NCBI GenBank assembly: GCA_022842285.1
Contig: JALHPV010000029.1
Span: forward strand, 1-39,074
Direction: 5' to 3'
DNA: 39,074 nt
Source of the DNA: Kofleriaceae bacterium
GTDB taxonomy: Bacteria > Myxococcota_A > Polyangia > Haliangiales > Haliangiaceae
The notes below the pieces were generated by a model. The model made no database searches. It worked only from the letters and a program-made list of their open reading frames with translations, and was not told the origin of the DNA. Made by a program: the position numbers and the translations under genes. Shown here piece after piece: positions 8,138 through 23,109 of the stretch (position 1 is its first letter; each line of letters starts with the position of its first letter).

Positions 8138-9058
8138 TCACCCGACCGTGTCGTCTGCCGCCGCATGCCCCATCGTACGCTGCGCGGGCACCGCCGTGTC
8201 CGCCGGGAGCGTCGGCGCGGTGCGGGCCGACCACACACCGCGGAACGTCACGGCCCCGACGACGATCGCGCCGCCGAGGATGGCGAGCGGACCGGGCATC
8301 TCGCCGATCGCCATCGCCACCCACAGCGGCGAGAGGATCGGTTCGATCACGGGGATGAGCATCGCCTCGAGCGCGGTGGCATGGCGCGCGGCCGCCGCGT
8401 AGCAGATGTACGCGAAGCCCTGCTGTACGACGCCGAGGGCGACGAGTGCGAGGACCTCGGTGCCAGTGGGACGCAGGGTGAGCACGACGGCGGGGGCCCC
8501 GATCACGGCCCCGACCACGTTGCCGAGGAACAGCGCGCGGAGGGCACTGCCACCGGAGACCGCGACCTTGCGCAGCGTCATGGCGTTGAACGCGTAGGCG
8601 ACGCCGGCAGTGAGCGCGACGCCATTGCCCACGGCGCCATCGAACGTGAGCTTCTCGAAGAAGAAGAGGGTGATGCCGCCGATGACGGCGACGATGGTGA
8701 ACCAGTCGAGCTTGGTCGCTTTCTCGCCGAGGAACCACGCGCCGAGGAGCGCGATCCAGACAGGGGCGGAGTACTGGATGAGGATCGCGTTCGCGGCGGT
8801 GGTGAGCTTGTTCGCGATGACGAACAGCCCCGTGGTCGAGGCGAGCGCCACGGCCGCCCCCCACTCGATGCGGGTGATGCCCTGCAGCGACGGACGGCCC
8901 CACGCATAGAGCGTCAGCGCACAGATGGCGCAGCGCGTGGACCAGATGGCGACGGGGTGCGCGTCGACGAGCTTGATGAGCACGCCCGCGGAGCTCCAGA
9001 ACAGTCCGCACATGACGAGCATGAACACTGCTCGGCGGTGCGGTGAAGTCTCGCTCAC
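8138..9058 (-). CDS. EamA/DMT-superfamily transporter
   Basis: A 306-residue integral membrane protein with about ten hydrophobic helices in two halves, the layout of drug/metabolite (EamA) transporters. The first half contains GLFWSSAGVLIK and the end-of-repeat pattern PVWIALLGAWFLGEKAT. The second half ends with PILSPLWVAMAIGEMPG and a final helix, as in the family. Such proteins export amino acids, metabolites or drugs; the substrate cannot be told. The C-terminal 30 residues are soluble and Ala/Thr-rich. The GTG start fits a TAGCGT hexamer eight bases upstream. Divergent from glgB with a 97-base gap. Confidence 0.85.
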   Translation of the reverse strand: MSETSPHRRAVFMLVMCGLFWSSAGVLIKLVDAHPVAIWSTRCAICALTLYAWGRPSLQGITRIEWGAAVALASTTGLFVIANKLTTAANAILIQYSAPVWIALLGAWFLGEKATKLDWFTIVAVIGGITLFFFEKLTFDGAVGNGVALTAGVAYAFNAMTLRKVAVSGGSALRALFLGNVVGAVIGAPAVVLTLRPTGTEVLALVALGVVQQGFAYICYAAAARHATALEAMLIPVIEPILSPLWVAMAIGEMPGPLAILGGAIVVGAVTFRGVWSARTAPTLPADTAVPAQRTMGHAAADDTVG

Positions 9059-9066
9059 GATGCGGG

Positions 9067-9072
9067 ACGCTA
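9067..9072 (-). promoter_or_regulatory. TANNNT -10-like element of the EamA transporter gene
   Basis: TAGCGT on the minus strand, eight bases before the GTG start at 9058. No good -35 is visible. Confidence 0.45.
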
Positions 9073-9140
9073 CACGATCGCGAGCGCACGCTTGTGATCA
9101 GCGGCGCCGAATGGCGACGCGGTTCACGTGCTGCTCGGCG

Positions 9141-9146
9141 TATGCT
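9141..9146 (+). promoter_or_regulatory. TANNNT -10-like element of glgB
   Basis: TATGCT ends nine bases before the GTG at 9156. The same hexamer at the same distance precedes oxyR. It supports the chosen GTG start for the branching enzyme. Confidence 0.5.
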
Positions 9147-9155
9147 GCGCGCGCC

Positions 9156-11027
9156 GTGACCTCGCTGCTGTCTGCCGACGACCTGTATCTCTTCAACGAA
9201 GGCAAGCTGTACCGGTTGCACGACCACCTCGGTGCACACGTCGTGGACCGGGGCGTGGTGTTTGGCGTATGGGCGCCGAATGCGGTGAGCGTGTCGGTCA
9301 TCGGCGACTGGAATCACTGGCAGGTCGGGGCCGACCCATTGAAGCCGCGCGGGGGTGGCATCTGGGAGGCTCTGGTGCCGACCGCAGCGCACGGCCATCG
9401 CTACAAGTTCGCGATCACCGGCCCCGATGCCGTGACGCGCGAAAAGTCCGATCCGCTCGCGGTCCGCGCCGAGTTGCCGCCGCAGACGGCCTCGATCGTC
9501 TGGAAGTCGGACTACACGTGGGGCGACGGCGAGTGGATGGCCACGCGGGGCGAACGCATCCAGCGCTCGGCGCCGATCAGCATCTACGAGGCTCACCTCG
9601 GGTCGTGGCGGAAGGCGAACGGCGAGGTGATGAACTACCGCGCCTATGGCGAGCAGCTCGGGGAGCACCTCGCGAACCTCGGCTTCACGCACCTCGAGGT
9701 GATGCCGCTCGCCGAGCATCCGTTCACGGGCTCGTGGGGCTACCAGGTGACGGGCTACTTCGCGCCGACGGCTCGCTACGGCTCGCCCGAAGATCTCATG
9801 GCGATGATCGACGGCCTGCATCGCCGCGGTATCGGCGTGATCATGGACTGGGTCCCGGCGCACTTCCCGACGGATGCGCACGGCCTCGGCGTCTTCGACG
9901 GCACGCACCTGTTCGAGCACGCCGATCCGCGGCGCGGGTTTCACCCCGACTGGACGACGTACGTCTTCAACTATGCGCGCCACGAGGTGCAGTCGTTCCT
10001 CATCTCGTCGGCCTTCGTGTGGCTCGACCGCTATCACGTCGATGCGCTGCGCGTGGATGGGGTCGCCTCGATGCTGTATCGCGACTATTCGCGCAAGCCG
10101 GGCGAGTGGATCCCGAACGAGGACGGCTCGAATCAGGATCGCGACGCGATCGCGTTTCTGCAGGAGTTCAATCGCGCCGTGTACGGGGCGTTCCCCGACG
10201 TCGCGACGATCGCCGAGGAGTCGACGGCGTTCCCCGGCGTGACCCGGCCGACAGACATGGGCGGACTCGGCTTCGGCTACAAGTGGGACCTCGGCTGGAT
10301 GCACGACACGCTGTCGTATCTGGCGCGTGATCCGATCCATCGTGCGCACCATCACAACGAGCTGACGTTCCGTCCGATGTACGCGTCGACGGAGAACTTC
10401 GTGATGCCGCTCTCGCACGACGAGGTCGTGCACCTGAAGGGCTCGCTCATCAAGAAGATCCCCGGTGACCCGTGGCAGCAGTACGCCTCGCTGCGGCTGC
10501 TCTTCGGCTACCAGTGGACGCTGCCGGGCAAGAAGCTCCTGTTCATGGGCGACGAGCTCGGCGTGTGGGGCGAGTGGAACCACGACACCGAGCTCGACTG
10601 GGCGCTGGGCGCTCATCCGGCTCACGCCGGCATCGGCCGCTGGATCGGCGATCTCAATCGCGCCTACCGCGAGCTGCCGGCGCTCCACCGGGGCGACTGC
10701 ACGCCCGAGGGCTTCGGCTGGCTCTTCGCCGACGACAGTGCGGGGAGCACGCTCGCCTACGCTCGCTACGGCCTCGGTGACGACCCGCCGGTGATCGCCG
10801 TCGCCAACTTCACCCCCGTGCCGCGCGAGGGCTATCGGGTGGGCGTCCCGCGGCCGGGCTTCTGGCGCGAGGTGCTCAACAGCGACGCCGAGGTCTACGG
10901 GGGAAGTGGGATCGGCAACAAAGGGGGGATGGAGGCGGAGGCGATCGGCATGCATGGCTTCCCGCAGTCGCTGGTCCTCTCGGTGCCGCCGCTCGCCATC
11001 GTCGTGTTAGCGTCGTCGGTGTCGTGA
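9156..11027 (+). CDS. glgB: 1,4-alpha-glucan (glycogen) branching enzyme
   Basis: A 623-residue GH13 enzyme that makes alpha-1,6 branches in glycogen. Domains are an N-terminal CBM48 (about 30-115, with FGVWAPNAVSVSVIGDWN), the catalytic barrel (about 140-510) and a C-terminal beta domain. Visible catalytic blocks: region I DWVPAHF (D231), region II ALRVDGVAS with nucleophile D301, region III TIAEEST (acid in the E354/E355 pair) and region IV PLSHDEVVH (H421, D422). The length matches the short form lacking the extra N1 module. The GTG start directly precedes the conserved SADDLYLFNEG segment. Its TGA overlaps the GTG of the GH57 gene by four bases, so the two are translationally coupled. Confidence 0.93.
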   Translation: MTSLLSADDLYLFNEGKLYRLHDHLGAHVVDRGVVFGVWAPNAVSVSVIGDWNHWQVGADPLKPRGGGIWEALVPTAAHGHRYKFAITGPDAVTREKSDPLAVRAELPPQTASIVWKSDYTWGDGEWMATRGERIQRSAPISIYEAHLGSWRKANGEVMNYRAYGEQLGEHLANLGFTHLEVMPLAEHPFTGSWGYQVTGYFAPTARYGSPEDLMAMIDGLHRRGIGVIMDWVPAHFPTDAHGLGVFDGTHLFEHADPRRGFHPDWTTYVFNYARHEVQSFLISSAFVWLDRYHVDALRVDGVASMLYRDYSRKPGEWIPNEDGSNQDRDAIAFLQEFNRAVYGAFPDVATIAEESTAFPGVTRPTDMGGLGFGYKWDLGWMHDTLSYLARDPIHRAHHHNELTFRPMYASTENFVMPLSHDEVVHLKGSLIKKIPGDPWQQYASLRLLFGYQWTLPGKKLLFMGDELGVWGEWNHDTELDWALGAHPAHAGIGRWIGDLNRAYRELPALHRGDCTPEGFGWLFADDSAGSTLAYARYGLGDDPPVIAVANFTPVPREGYRVGVPRPGFWREVLNSDAEVYGGSGIGNKGGMEAEAIGMHGFPQSLVLSVPPLAIVVLASSVS

Positions 11028-18071: not shown

Positions 18072-18695
18072 GTGCGTCGCGCGGCGGTGATGGTGTTCGT
18101 GCTGGCGGCGCTGCCGGTTCAGGCCGCCCCGTCTCGCTCGGCCCCGCCCGACGAGCTGATCGCGGTCGAGCCCGCGATTCCCGACGCGGTCTTCGACATT
18201 CGCTACGCGACGACCAACAACTTCATGGGCGAGGTCATGTACCCGTCGGCGACGTGTCTCTTGCGACGGGCGGTCGTCGAGCGGCTGTCGCGGGCCGCGG
18301 ACCTGCTGCGCGCGCAAGGTCGGCGGCTACTCATCTGGGACTGCTACCGGCCGCTCTCCATCCAGAAGAAGCTCTGGGAGAAGGTGAAGGACCCGAAGTA
18401 CGTGGCCAACCCGAAGACCGGGTCGCGTCACAACCGCGGGGCCGCGATCGATCTCGCCGTCGTGGACAAGGACGGCCAACCCGTCACCCTGCCGACCGAG
18501 TTCGATGACTTCTCCAAGCGAGCGCATCGCAAGCGCGCGCTGAAGGGCGAGCAGGGCGTCGAGGCCAAGCGACTCGAGACGGCGATGAAGGAGGCGGGCT
18601 TCGTCCCGATGGCCACCGAGTGGTGGCATTTCGACGCACCCGAGGCCCACGATTACAAGATCTCGGATCAGCCGCTCCAGGACGCCCCGCAGTAG
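18072..18695 (+). CDS. Exported D-alanyl-D-alanine dipeptidase (VanX/DdpX family)
   Basis: A 207-residue zinc peptidase with an N-terminal signal peptide (VRRAAVMVFVLAALPVQA, cleavage predicted before APS), so it acts in the periplasm. The VanX zinc-site signature is complete: SRHNRGAAIDL supplies H120 and D127, and TEWWHFD supplies catalytic E183 and H186. The family cleaves D-Ala-D-Ala. Without vanH/vanA neighbours, peptidoglycan turnover or D-Ala salvage, as for DdpX, is more likely than glycopeptide resistance. The GTG at 18072 gives an Arg-rich N-terminus ahead of the hydrophobic core and fits the TACGCT element. An ATG at 18090 is the alternative start. Confidence 0.87.
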   Translation: MRRAAVMVFVLAALPVQAAPSRSAPPDELIAVEPAIPDAVFDIRYATTNNFMGEVMYPSATCLLRRAVVERLSRAADLLRAQGRRLLIWDCYRPLSIQKKLWEKVKDPKYVANPKTGSRHNRGAAIDLAVVDKDGQPVTLPTEFDDFSKRAHRKRALKGEQGVEAKRLETAMKEAGFVPMATEWWHFDAPEAHDYKISDQPLQDAPQ

Positions 18696-18707: not shown

Positions 18708-20087
18708 GTGACGAGCTATCCGGTCAACGAGTTCGGCCCGCTGATGAAGGGACTCGTGATCGGTGGCGTGGGCATTCTCCACGTCTTCCTCGCGCAGTTC
18801 GCGATCGGCGGAGGGGTACTCCTGTTCGCCATGGAGCGTCGGGCGCAGCGCGGGGACGCCGACGCGCGGCGTTTCGTCGATGGCTACTTCAAGATCCTCG
18901 TGCTCGTGAGCTTCGTGCTCGGAGCGCTGACGGGCGTCGCGATGTGGTTCACGACGATCCAGGTCGGCGCCCGGACGATCGGCCTCATGATCGACGAGTT
19001 CCACTGGCTCTGGGCGACCGAGTGGGTGTGGTTCTCTCTCGAGGTCGTGGCGGGGTATGCGTTCTATCGCTTCGGCCCGACGCTCTCGGACCGGGCGCGG
19101 ATCCGGCTGCTCGGGCTGTACGCGGTGTCGTCGTGGATGAGCCTGTTCTGGATCAACGGCATCCTGTCGTGGCAGCTCACGCCGGGCCGGTGGCTCGAAG
19201 GCGCGGGGATGTGGGCGGGCTTCTTCAACCCGAGCTTCTTCCCGTCGCTCCTGTTTCGTACCGCCGTGGCGCTGACACTGGCCGGCCTCGTGTCGTGCGT
19301 GATCATCAACACGATGGATCTCGATCGCGCGCGGAAGCAGGCGCTGATCTCGCGCGCGGCGAAGTTCGCGACCCCGATCGCCCTGATGCCCCTCCTCGCG
19401 CTCTGGTTCCTCGCGGTGATTCCCGCCGACAGCCGGGCCTGGCTGCTGGGTGGCAGCATGCCGATGCTGATGTTCGTCGGGGTGGCCGCGGGCGCATCCA
19501 CGCTGATCGGCGGCTACGTGATCGTCGGCCTCGTCGTGAAGCGGCTCTACATCAACGCCGCGACCGCGCTCTTGCTCCTCGCGCTCGCGTTCGGCGCGAC
19601 GGCGGCGGGTGAGTTCGTGCGCGAGGGCGCACGCAAGCCGTACACCGTGCGCGGCGTCCTGTACTCCACATCCATCACGCCGGCCGAGGTGGCAGGACTA
19701 CGCGCGCGCGGGGCCGTCGTCGACGACCCGTACCCCCTGCGCGACCAGCACCGCTATCCGAACGATCAGCTCGTCCGTGGCGCCAAGGTCTTTCGCTCCC
19801 TCTGCGATGCCTGCCACACGATGGCCGGAGCGAACGGCGTCCAGCACCTCGTCGCGACGTGGACCGACGATCAGCTCCGCCTGAACATCGCGAAGCTGCA
19901 ACGGACGAAGGGTTTCATGCCGCCGTTCGCGGGCAACGCCGAGGATGTCGAGGCGATCGTCCAGCTGCTCAAGTGGGAGCGCGCCCGGGCCCCCGCGATC
20001 TGGCCGATGACCACGCCCCCGGCCCAGGTCCAGACCTGGCTCGACGAGGCCGGCATCCATCCCGCCCCGCCGTTGGAGGCCCCATGA
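18708..20087 (+). CDS. CydA-like bd-superfamily subunit fused to a cytochrome c domain
   Basis: A 459-residue protein: a membrane part of about eight helices (1-300) and a C-terminal monohaem cytochrome c (355-425) with C366-D-A-C369-H370 and a likely axial Met404 in FMPPF. CydA likeness is seen in helix I (GILHVFLAQFAIGGG, H25), in TGVAMWFTTIQ and IDEFHWLWATEWVWFSLE (helices II-III), and in ARKPYTVRGVL before the c domain, which parallels the CydA 'GRQPW' segment. There is no long Q-loop between the middle helices, and helix V (about 178-200) has no histidine where CydA carries a b558 ligand. The c domain is probably periplasmic. A quinol oxidase role is therefore doubtful. Stop overlaps the next start (ATGA). 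Confidence 0.8.
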   Translation: MTSYPVNEFGPLMKGLVIGGVGILHVFLAQFAIGGGVLLFAMERRAQRGDADARRFVDGYFKILVLVSFVLGALTGVAMWFTTIQVGARTIGLMIDEFHWLWATEWVWFSLEVVAGYAFYRFGPTLSDRARIRLLGLYAVSSWMSLFWINGILSWQLTPGRWLEGAGMWAGFFNPSFFPSLLFRTAVALTLAGLVSCVIINTMDLDRARKQALISRAAKFATPIALMPLLALWFLAVIPADSRAWLLGGSMPMLMFVGVAAGASTLIGGYVIVGLVVKRLYINAATALLLLALAFGATAAGEFVREGARKPYTVRGVLYSTSITPAEVAGLRARGAVVDDPYPLRDQHRYPNDQLVRGAKVFRSLCDACHTMAGANGVQHLVATWTDDQLRLNIAKLQRTKGFMPPFAGNAEDVEAIVQLLKWERARAPAIWPMTTPPAQVQTWLDEAGIHPAPPLEAP

Positions 20088-21022
20088 GTCGCGTGTGGCT
20101 CGTCCTCTATCTCGCCACGTGGGTGCTGCACTTCGTGCTCGTGAGCTACGTGCTCGTTGGCAGTGGCTACGCTCTCGGGCAGTCACTGCGGGGCCGCGAC
20201 GACGATCCGCTCGCCGCCCGCATCCGCGATCTGCTGCCCTTCATGCTCGGCTGCGGCATCACCGCCGGCGTCGCGCCGCTCCTGTTCTTGCAGCTCCTCC
20301 ATCAGGAGCGCTTCTACACCGCGAATCTCTTGCTCGGCCCACGCTGGGGCGCGGTCGTGCCTGCGCTGATCGTCGGGTTCTACGCGCTGTATCTCCAGAA
20401 GGCGGCGACGACCCCGAGGTGGCGCCGGCTCGCCCTCGCGGCGGCGACGGGGTGCTTTCTCTTCGTCGCGTGGTCCTGGACCGAGCTGCACCTCGTGATG
20501 CGAGATACCCCCTCGTGGGTCGCGATGTACGCGGCCGGCGAGCGCTTCTACGGCCAGAGCGGGGTCCTCCCGCGCTTGCTCCTGTGGCTCGGGGTGATGC
20601 CCGTGCTGTTCGCGGGCCTCGCGGCGTGGTGGTCGCGAGGGGCCGAGCGCCAGCGCCTCGCCGTCGTCGCCTTCGTGGGCCACGTGATCGCGGGCGTCGC
20701 CGTGGCCTGGCTGTCGGCCCGCGGGAGCAGCGTCGACCCGGTCGCGCGGGGCTGGCTGTATCTCCTGATCGCGGCGGTGGTGATCGAGCTCGTGGGATGG
20801 GGCCTGGTGCTCCGGCGCCCCGACGGCCCGGGGCTCACGATCGTCACGGGGGCCGCGACGGCCGCGATGCTCGGCCTGGCCATCGTGCGCGAGTCCCCGC
20901 GGCTCGCCCTGGTCACGGCCCGTCCGGCGGCCCTCGAGGCCAGCGGCGTCTGGGTCTTCGCCATCACGGCGGTCTTCGCCGTCGCTGCGATCGCCTGGGT
21001 CGTCAAGACGATCCGGGACTGA
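20084..21022 (+). CDS. Polytopic membrane partner of the CydA-like/cytochrome c protein
   Basis: A 312-residue protein with about eight or nine hydrophobic helices and no CydB signature that I recognise. Its first helices echo those of the upstream subunit. VLHFVLVSYVLVGSGYAL (H16) resembles ILHVFLAQFAIGGG, and ITAGVAPLLFLQ resembles LTGVAMWFTTIQ, so I infer a diverged CydA paralogue. Other histidines are H73 (LLHQERFY), H136 (TELHLV) and H200 (GHVIAG). It may be the second subunit of a heterodimer like CydA with CydA-prime. The four-base ATGA overlap with the upstream gene shows tight coupling. The last three helices are poorly conserved-looking. Confidence 0.68.
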   Translation: MSRVWLVLYLATWVLHFVLVSYVLVGSGYALGQSLRGRDDDPLAARIRDLLPFMLGCGITAGVAPLLFLQLLHQERFYTANLLLGPRWGAVVPALIVGFYALYLQKAATTPRWRRLALAAATGCFLFVAWSWTELHLVMRDTPSWVAMYAAGERFYGQSGVLPRLLLWLGVMPVLFAGLAAWWSRGAERQRLAVVAFVGHVIAGVAVAWLSARGSSVDPVARGWLYLLIAAVVIELVGWGLVLRRPDGPGLTIVTGAATAAMLGLAIVRESPRLALVTARPAALEASGVWVFAITAVFAVAAIAWVVKTIRD

Positions 21023-21049: not shown

Positions 21050-21571
21050 CTAGGCCGTCGCGAGCGTCAGCGCAACCGCGTGCACGACGGCCGCGATCCG
21101 GACGGCATCCTGGACCTGGTCCTGGGTCCCACCCTTGCTGCGAACCGTCCGCTCGTGGGACTGCACGCACATCTCGCAGCCGGTGATCGCGGAGCACGCG
21201 AGGCACCAGAGCTCGAAGTCGACGTGCTCGACGCCTGGCTTCCCGATGACCTGCATGCGCAAGCGCGCCGGCAACTCGGAGTAGCCGCTCGCGGCGCCCA
21301 TCATGTGGTTGAACCGGTAGTAGACGTTGTTCATCCCCATGATGGCAGCGGCCGCCTTCGCCGCCATCACCGCCTCCGCCGACAGATGCGGCGAAGCCTC
21401 CGCGGCGATCGCGTCGACCACCTCGCGGTTCTTCGACGTGACCGCCGCGGCCAGCGCGGTGCCCCAGGCCTGCTGCGGAGACAGCGCCGTCGACCCCGCG
21501 ATCACGCCGAGGTTGATCCGGAGATCCTTCGCGTAGTCGGGGATCCGTGTCTTGAGCGCCTCGATGGTCAT
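21050..21571 (-). CDS. ahpD: Alkyl hydroperoxide reductase AhpD
   Basis: A 173-residue cytosolic protein of the AhpD/carboxymuconolactone decarboxylase-like fold. The active site CEMC (C132, C135) with H139 three residues on and E120 upstream matches the E-x(11)-C-x2-C-x3-H arrangement of mycobacterial AhpD. In mycobacteria AhpD passes electrons from lipoylated dihydrolipoamide succinyltransferase (via Lpd) to the peroxiredoxin AhpC. Here it follows ahpC by two bases on the same strand, the standard operon. Convergent with the membrane gene upstream; only a 5-bp hairpin (21026-21040) lies between them. Confidence 0.92.
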
Positions 21572-21573
21572 GG

Positions 21574-22113
21574 CTAGGCCGCCGTGAGCGTCTTCTCGCC
21601 CTTCTGCCAGTTACACGGGCAGAGCTCGTCGGTCTGCAGGGCGTCGAGGACGCGGAGCGTCTCGGCGGGGTTGCGGCCAACGTTCAGGTCATTGACGGAC
21701 ACGAAGCGAATCACGCCCTGCGGGTCGACGACGAACGTCGCGCGCAGCGCCACGCCTTCGTTCTTGTCGAGGATCCCGAGCGCTTGCGAAATCTCGCGCT
21801 TGATGTCCGCGACCATGGGGAACGTGAGGTCCTTCAGGTCGGGGTGATTCTGCCGCCACGCGAGGTGGACGAATTCGCTATCGGTCGAGACGCCCAGGAG
21901 CTGCGCGTCACGATCCCGGAAGTCGCGGTCGAGCTTTCCGAAGGCCGCGATCTCGGTCGGGCACACGAACGTGAAGTCCTTCGGCCAGAAGAAGTAGACC
22001 TTCCACTTGCCCTCGAAGGAGCTGCTGTCGATGTCGAGGAACTCTTTGCCGCGCTCGAGCGAGACGACGGCCTTGGCTTTGAACTGCGGGAACTGGTCGC
22101 CAATGGTCAACAT
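21574..22113 (-). CDS. ahpC: Peroxiredoxin AhpC
   Basis: A 179-residue peroxiredoxin that reduces hydrogen peroxide and organic peroxides in the cytosol. [18 protein letters not shown] holds the peroxidatic Cys51. The C-terminus [15 protein letters not shown] holds Cys165 and Cys167, the double-cysteine ending of the actinobacterial-type AhpC that is served by AhpD rather than AhpF. The chosen ATG (22113) matches the family start MLTIGDQFP; the longer in-frame ORF runs antisense through oxyR and is rejected. It is divergent from oxyR across 75 bases carrying OxyR-like half-sites, so induction by peroxide is likely. Confidence 0.94.
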
Positions 22114-22139
22114 GTGACGGCACCATGGCCACCGATCGG

Positions 22140-22189
22140 TGATAAGGCCAATCGCGACCACTGATAAGGGTGATATGCTGCGCCTATCA
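22140..22189. promoter_or_regulatory. OxyR-type control region between ahpC and oxyR
   Basis: TGATA-N9-TATCA (22171-22189) is a perfect inverted repeat of LysR-type geometry. It contains ATA-N9-TAT, the spacing of the OxyR half-site pair ATAGNTNNNANCTAT, and retains CTAT on the right. Its last base is the A of the oxyR ATG. TGATAAGG occurs upstream at 22140-22147 and 22162-22169. Bound OxyR could control ahpC and repress its own gene. Confidence 0.55.
22174..22179 (+). promoter_or_regulatory. TANNNT -10-like element of oxyR
   Basis: TATGCT ends nine bases before the ATG at 22189 and lies inside the TGATA-N9-TATCA palindrome, so OxyR binding there would cover its own promoter. Confidence 0.45.
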
Positions 22190-23109
22190 TGGACCGACCC
22201 TCCATCCGGCAGCTCGAGTGCGTCGTGGCGGTCGCCGAGCAGCGCAGCTTCCGGCGGGCCGCCGGCACCCTCGGAATCTCGCAGCCGGCCCTCTCCGCGC
22301 AGGTCCAGGCCGCCGAGGAGCTCCTCGGCGTCCAGATCTTCGAGCGTGACCGGCGCAGCGTCCTCGTCACCCCTGCGGGGGAAGACGTCGTGGGCCGCGC
22401 CCGCGAAGCCCTGACGGCCATCGATGGCGTCACCGATGCCGCCCGGCGCCGCGGCGAGCCCCTCGTCGGCCCGCTCCGCCTCGGTGTCATCCCCACCGTC
22501 GCTCCCTACTGGCTCCCCGCGCTCCTCCCCGCCGTCCGCGCCAGGTTCCCTCGCCTCGAGCTCATCCTGCGCGAGGACCAGACCCACCGGCTCCTCACGA
22601 TGCTGTCCGCCGGCCAGCTCGATACGGCCCTCCTTGCCATCCCCGTCCCGGGCGACTTCACGACGGCCACCATCGCGCAGGAGTCGTTCCTCCTCGCTGC
22701 TCCGCGTGGTGCCAGCATCGTCCACAAGAAGGGCAAGCTGACCGAGCGCGACCTCGACGATCAGACCGTGCTCTTGCTCGAGGACGGGCACTGCCTCCGC
22801 GACCAGGCCCTCGCGGTCTGCGAGCGCGGCGGGGCCGTCGAGTCGATGGAGGTCCGCGGCACGAGTCTGCCGACCCTCATCCAGATGGTCGCCGGCAAGC
22901 TCGGGGTGACCCTGCTGCCCGAAGCGGCGGCCGATGCCCTGGTCCCTCCGCGCGGCGGCGTCGAGCTCGCCGAGTTCACCCGCCCGACACCCGGCCGCAC
23001 GCTCGGCCTCGCATGGCGAACCTCGTCGGCCCGCCTCCGTGAGTTCCGCATGCTCTCGGAGGTCATGGCCGAGGCCGCGTCGACCTTCCTCGCGAAGCTC
23101 AGAAAGTAG
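22189..23109 (+). CDS. oxyR: Peroxide-sensing LysR-family regulator OxyR
   Basis: A 306-residue LysR-type regulator. The N-terminal winged helix (about 1-65) has SFRRAAGTLGISQPALSAQVQ as recognition region, and the effector domain follows. The OxyR redox switch is visible: EDGHCLRDQALAVC places C202 and C211 nine residues apart, the same spacing as C199/C208 of E. coli OxyR with nearly the same context. Oxidation to a disulfide should convert it to an activator of peroxide defence. Its divergent partner ahpC-ahpD is the obvious target. It ends 21 bases from the convergent cardiolipin synthase gene. Confidence 0.94.
   Translation: MDRPSIRQLECVVAVAEQRSFRRAAGTLGISQPALSAQVQAAEELLGVQIFERDRRSVLVTPAGEDVVGRAREALTAIDGVTDAARRRGEPLVGPLRLGVIPTVAPYWLPALLPAVRARFPRLELILREDQTHRLLTMLSAGQLDTALLAIPVPGDFTTATIAQESFLLAAPRGASIVHKKGKLTERDLDDQTVLLLEDGHCLRDQALAVCERGGAVESMEVRGTSLPTLIQMVAGKLGVTLLPEAAADALVPPRGGVELAEFTRPTPGRTLGLAWRTSSARLREFRMLSEVMAEAASTFLAKLRK

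Follow-up and report, generated by a model that had tools for sequence, protein, structure and literature searches.

A CydA-like subunit with a cytochrome c domain and its CydA-paralogous partner: a probable cytochrome c:O2 oxidoreductase of the bd superfamily in a Kofleriaceae bacterium

INTRODUCTION

From where would a membrane oxidase of the cytochrome bd superfamily draw its electrons, and to what would it pass them, if its CydA-like subunit carries a covalently bound c haem and no quinol site? Two adjoining genes of a Kofleriaceae bacterium (Myxococcota_A; assembly GCA_022842285.1) raise this question. They lie in the window, the whole stretch of 39,074 nucleotides that was analysed (contig JALHPV010000029.1, positions 1–39,074). 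The initial annotation, made from the sequence, had proposed a CydA-like/cytochrome c fusion with a CydA-paralogous partner at positions 18708–21022, which would either exchange electrons with a c-type cytochrome or reduce something other than oxygen.

In Escherichia coli CydA, H186 and M393 ligate haem b558, and E445 and E99 are located at the other two haems (PMC6853902), while E107 has been proposed as the last proton donor (PMC13189123). The superfamily was divided in 2021 into the classes qOR, OR-C and OR-N, a classification cited in passages of PMC13189123, PMC11707229 and PMC10839748, where the OR-N enzymes are treated as putative cytochrome c oxidases without biochemical proof.

RESULTS

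Organization of the locus

Both gene calls of the initial annotation were right. The gene of subunit I (18708–20087, plus strand; GTG start, 459 aa) encodes a CydA-like membrane domain of eight helices followed by a C-terminal mono-haem cytochrome c. The gene of subunit II (20084–21022, plus strand; 312 aa, nine helices) encodes the CydA paralogue, hereafter CydA', and starts at an ATG inside an ATGA overlap with the first gene. Because of this overlap, the two genes are very likely co-transcribed, and their translation is very likely coupled as well.

Twelve bases upstream of the subunit I start ends a gene of the M15 D-Ala-D-Ala dipeptidase family (18126–18695, plus strand; Pfam PF01427), which is possibly co-transcribed with the pair. 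It adjoins subunit I in most close relatives and was not found in two of them (L006 and L008); its function has no obvious link to respiration and is probably unrelated to that of the pair. A CorA gene lies farther upstream, beyond the dipeptidase gene. Downstream of the pair, Pfam searches define an oxidative-stress block of mixed strand (21050–23109), composed of a carboxymuconolactone decarboxylase/AhpD-like gene (21050–21571, minus strand), an AhpC-type peroxiredoxin gene (21574 to about 22173, minus strand) and a LysR-type regulator gene (22189–23109, plus strand). This block stays near the pair in close Myxococcota relatives and was not seen near distant homologues.

Subunit I appears to keep the O2 site and to lack the quinol and b558 part

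The membrane domain of subunit I is matched by the Pfam family Cyt_bd_oxida_I (PF01654) over residues 23–234 with 42 bits, above the curated cut-off. The AlphaFold model of the single chain (pLDDT 79, pTM 0.79) shows eight long helices, with a globular part at the C-terminal end. In VIA-align searches it superimposes on CydA chains over about 300 residues (Z 26.6–29.9, 3.0–3.3 Å), the best match being 7ose_A (Z 29.9, 3.0 Å, 308 residues), followed by the membrane subunits of alternative complex III and polysulfide reductase (15.7–18.8). Apart from one weak CydA match (E 0.11), single-sequence and profile searches of PDB sequences returned cytochrome c domains only, and no solved OR-C-like structure was found in these searches.

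Residues were mapped through an alignment of subunit I with E. coli CydA and 31 canonical CydA sequences, and conservation was counted in 60 subunit I homologues. H25 (18780–18782, plus strand), E105 (19020–19022, plus strand) and E112 (19041–19043, plus strand) correspond to H19, E99 and E107 of E. coli CydA, respectively, and are invariant (60/60), as is R184 (60/60). At the end of helix 8, the E302-R305-E306-R309 segment (19611–19634, plus strand), in which E306 and R309 correspond to E445 and R448, respectively, is invariant in 59/59 sequences. The di-haem-site residues H19, E99, E107, E445 and R448 are thus all represented, and the di-haem site of subunit I looks complete, as judged from the alignment; the equivalents of the last four of these residues had been absent from the initial annotation's list.

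By comparison, the ligands of haem b558 are gone: the H186 column holds F183 and the M393 column holds V259 in subunit I, and a histidine at the H186 column is absent from all 60 homologues in the alignment. The K252 and E257 columns of the Q-loop are gaps throughout the aligned subunit I family, and the loop between helices 6 and 7 comprises residues 238–250 only in the model. These observations bear out the initial annotation, which had reported that the H186-position histidine and the Q-loop are missing; a normal Q-loop and b558 ligands did not appear in subunit I. Taken together, the residue map suggests that the O2 site is kept and that the quinol and b558 part has been lost.

The count of two membrane histidines, H25 and H99, was likewise confirmed. 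H99 had been listed as a possible haem ligand, a role that we no longer assign to it: it is kept in only 19 of the 60 homologues, the others having V, F, L or M, and it is therefore unlikely to be an essential ligand.

A periplasmic cytochrome c domain takes the place of helix 9

The cytochrome c domain (about residues 355–422; 19770–19974, plus strand) is matched by Cytochrome_CBB3 (PF13442; 31.3 bits, residues 355–419), above the curated cut-off. The haem-binding motif CDACH (residues 366–370) and the axial ligand Met404 named in the initial annotation are conserved in the family, C366, C369 and H370 being invariant in 59/59 homologues and M404 being present in 57 of the 58 that have a letter at this position. 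The domain occupies the place where helix 9 of CydA should be. Read by the positive-inside rule, the loop charges place both the c domain and the N terminus on the outside, the periplasmic side, where c haems are attached; this topology puts the c haem in the periplasm, immediately behind the helix that bears E306.

The c parts of the homologues have between 1 and 8 CxxCH motifs, with the di-haem site never changing; most have one, and several from Desulfobacterota and one from another Myxococcota genome have eight. In a Desulfobacterota genome, a further gene near the pair (L126:4269–5519, minus strand) encodes a 417-aa protein that contains eight CxxCH motifs.

Subunit II resembles CydA and not CydB

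Searches of subunit II against Pfam and NCBIfam gave no match of note and no CydB family match, and single-sequence and profile searches of PDB sequences found nothing. With nine helices, the single chain adopts the bd-oxidase fold in its AlphaFold model (pLDDT 86). In the fold search, CydA and CydB chains match it equally well (Z 21–24; 23.6 to CydB 5doq_B and 23.4 to CydA 9r2g_A), so that the fold alone cannot tell the two apart.

The distinction is provided by profile–profile comparison with hhalign, for which about 40 sequences per subunit family and about 32 each of canonical CydA and CydB were used. Against the subunit I family, the subunit II profile reaches a probability of 97.5; the value is 73 for canonical CydA and 10 for CydB. 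In the same set-up, CydB against CydA gives a background of 1.0, and reversed or shuffled subunit II columns give at most 2.7. The depth of the alignments matters for these values, as shallow alignments gave 11.6 for subunit I against its partner and the deeper ones gave the 97.5. Some distant partners are also matched directly by the subunit I HMM (L083, E about 2e-7). The profile resemblance therefore indicates that subunit II is a CydA paralogue and not CydB, in line with the initial annotation, which had seen no CydB signature in it and had noted that its first helices mirror those of subunit I.

The hhalign alignment pairs H25 of subunit I with H16 of the partner, and R305-E306-x-x-R309 with R269-E270-x-x-R273. 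H16, R269 and R273 are invariant among the partners, 40 of 41 of which also have R at position 164. The partner thus keeps the helix-1 histidine and the R-x-x-x-R motif and is without the two helix-3 glutamates. With H16 as a ligand, subunit II may bind one more haem. E270 was considered as an E445-like ligand and rejected, as the position varies: 26 of 40 partners have E there and the remainder D, H, N, Q, A or F.

The pair is conserved as a separate branch of the superfamily

About 60 homologues were found in Myxococcota, Desulfobacterota, a Phycisphaerales metagenome-assembled genome (MAG) and a Thermocrinis MAG, the closest named relatives of the source genome being Deltaproteobacteria/Myxococcales MAGs. 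The partner adjoins subunit I in all but two of roughly 60 loci, in either gene order, which is nearly all loci with enough flank. The exceptions are L162, which reaches a contig end, and L121, an eight-haem version for which no adjoining CydA' was found. Upstream in L121, a gene (8856–9356, minus strand) reads by eye like a rubrerythrin/ferritin-like protein.

Subunit I is present in 14 of the 16 genomes listed for its own genus, the source genome included. At E ≤ 0.001, matches occur in at most 45 of 290 genomes of its own class and at most 50 of 198 genomes of the Desulfobacterota sample; these are upper figures, since the weaker matches that they include are likely to contain canonical CydA or cytochrome c.

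In the tree, computed with IQ-TREE under LG+C20, the family of the window pair (100/99), the canonical qOR (100/100) and a third group, group X (100/99), each form one side of a branch, so that the family stands separate from both others. Group X comes from other Myxococcota (L088:5681–7816, minus strand, and 8722–10539, plus strand; L089:6808–8622, minus strand; L090:6087–8468, plus strand; L092:4729–7302, minus strand). Its CydA-like proteins are long, at about 600 aa or above; the H186 column is occupied by H in them and the E99 column by Y. Two of them lie side by side in L088, and the one in L090 has a C-terminal CxxCH. Group X is possibly of the OR-N type and is used here as a candidate stand-in for it.

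Nine loci link the pair to a Rieske protein and cytochrome b

In nine Myxococcota loci (L083–L087, L151, L153, L154 and L155), genes for a Rieske protein, cytochrome b, subunit I and subunit II follow one another on one strand; L083 is counted among them, with its contig ending at cytochrome b. The operon-like run spans, for example, L084:5722–10030 and L085:5433–9813 in distant Myxococcota relatives. Five of the nine loci are in the tree, where they form one 100/100 clade. In none of the nine loci was a cytochrome c1 gene seen between those of cytochrome b and subunit I, and the c domain may therefore also stand in for cytochrome c1 there.

The pair of the window has no Rieske or cytochrome b neighbours, and its clade is without this arrangement. 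The respiratory chain of the source genome (7.9 Mb, 550 contigs) was sampled by family searches. They returned no CydB (PF02322) match, one PF01654 match with no canonical CydA found, three genes for haem-copper oxidase subunit I (COX1; contigs C491, C346 and C145) and a single cytochrome b, on contig C9. Alternative complex III was dropped as a component of this genome, as no NrfD match was obtained. The window pair presumably takes its electrons from a cytochrome c, which would in turn be reduced by the bc complex to which the cytochrome b on C9 belongs.

DISCUSSION

Fold, HMM comparison, tree and pair conservation all support the core of the initial annotation, namely a bd-superfamily CydA/cytochrome c fusion with a CydA-paralogous partner that handles electrons through cytochrome c. 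On the evidence of sequences and models, the pair is probably a heterodimeric membrane oxidase, best classified as an OR-C-type cytochrome c:O2 oxidoreductase. According to what is reported of the work of Murali, Gennis and Hemp in 2021, OR-C is a branch with c-type haem that includes paralogous subunit pairs. The window pair shares with OR-C a catalytic subunit without a quinol site, and the c haem that OR-C is said to carry on its CydA-type subunit is present in subunit I (PF13442; CxxCH in 59/59). The name OR-C is the one that suits these features best. Literature searches found no biochemical demonstration of OR-N or OR-C function and no experimental evidence for what the family of the window pair does.

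In the route that we propose, a bc-type complex would deliver electrons to the c haem. In some relatives, this would be done by the Rieske protein and cytochrome b of the same operon; in the source genome, which has one cytochrome b, located on a different contig, this protein would act through a soluble or bound cytochrome c. From the c haem, electrons would pass to the haem at E306 and on to the haem at H25/E105, where O2 would bind, and the cytoplasm would supply the protons. In this scheme, the c domain would replace both haem b558 and the Q-loop, and subunit II would take the structural place of CydB. A more elaborate picture is offered only tentatively: subunit I and CydA' would form a pseudo-symmetric dimer with the H16 haem in the partner, and in the relatives this dimer would be the oxidase half of a single Rieske–cytochrome b–bd module, in which the c domain does the work of cytochrome c1 as well as that of haem b558; the result would be a compact quinol:O2 chain whose Q-cycle ends in a bd-type and not a haem-copper site.

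The physiological role admits a second, rather doubtful reading, in which the pair is mainly a protective scavenger of O2 or peroxide, in place of an energy-conserving respiratory enzyme, and dumps electrons of periplasmic c-type cytochromes onto O2 or H2O2. The AhpC, AhpD-like and LysR-type (OxyR-like) genes that adjoin the pair and lie near it in close relatives too would suit such a role, as would the frequency of the family in Desulfobacterota, a largely anaerobic phylum, and the three haem-copper oxidases with which the source genome is already equipped. However, the stress genes are transcribed separately and do not accompany distant homologues, whereas the nine Rieske–cytochrome b loci tie the pair to a respiratory setting. 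As to the acceptor, we infer O2 from the residue map. A change of electron donor might be accompanied by a change of acceptor, for example to nitric oxide, and the initial annotation had allowed in general terms for an acceptor other than oxygen; however, the equivalents of H19, E99, E107, E445 and R448 of the O2-reducing site are invariant in the 60 homologues, so that this part of its proposal gains no support and an acceptor other than O2 is improbable, while its suggestion of electron exchange with a c-type cytochrome stands. Still less credible is an ordinary quinol-oxidising cytochrome bd with a diverged CydB and the c domain as an add-on: the partner does share its overall fold with CydB as well as CydA, but its profile sides with CydA, and the 60 homologues are uniformly without the Q-loop and the H186-column histidine. 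A decayed, non-functional CydA relic, which the lost b558 site taken alone might suggest, is scarcely conceivable given that several phyla have retained the active-site residues, the CxxCH motif and the partner, and that subunit I persists in nearly all listed genomes of its genus.

Canonical CydAB (E. coli bd-I; PMC6853902, PMC13189123) has in common with subunit I the CydA fold and the complete di-haem site, but the window pair is without the Q-loop, the b558 ligands, helix 9 and CydB, and has the added cytochrome c. Two CydA-type subunits and cytochrome c as the proposed donor are features that it shares with the OR-N-type CydAA' of Nitrospinota and Nitrospirales, some Nitrospirales versions of which adjoin genes of alternative complex III (PMC10839748, PMC12342949). 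The candidate OR-N proteins of group X differ from the window family in their position in the tree and in the histidine at the H186 column. A second subunit that is a CydA paralogue is also found in the archaeal CydAA' of Caldivirga (qOR4-type), which the 2021 study of Murali is said to describe as a quinol oxidase built from two CydA paralogues; unlike that enzyme, the window pair has no quinol site.

In 2015, more than 50 delta-proteobacteria were noted to have chimaeric cydA genes with c-type cytochromes fused to them and no cydB; the authors set these genes aside as not 'proper bd oxidases', in a passage that mentions no partner (PMC5322542). The combination of CydA with c haems and no CydB is the same as in the window, and eight-haem versions occur here in Desulfobacterota, whereas the window pair has an adjoining CydA' and a single c haem. 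In cable bacteria, a Rieske protein, cytochrome b and a lone CydA homologue are thought to pass electrons to O2 (PMC10030654, PMC11247825). In view of the nine Rieske–cytochrome b operons, it is reasonable to ask whether the cable-bacterium CydA is of this type, and in most cable bacteria the three proteins could form the same kind of O2-reducing module.

The family itself is known from sequence surveys; what our analysis adds is the identity of the partner, the bookkeeping of residues over 60 homologues and the linkage to Rieske and cytochrome b genes, which together make the electron route testable. The gene order Rieske–cytochrome b–CydA–CydA' defines a four-protein unit for expression and assay. 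In genomes described as having CydA but no CydB, a complete oxidase may be present, its second subunit overlooked because Pfam and NCBIfam offer no model for subunit II. If the proposed route is correct, bd-type oxidases are not bound to quinol as their donor but can take electrons from cytochrome c, and the textbook division between bd oxidases, which use quinol, and haem-copper oxidases, which use cytochrome c after the bc complex, would break down.
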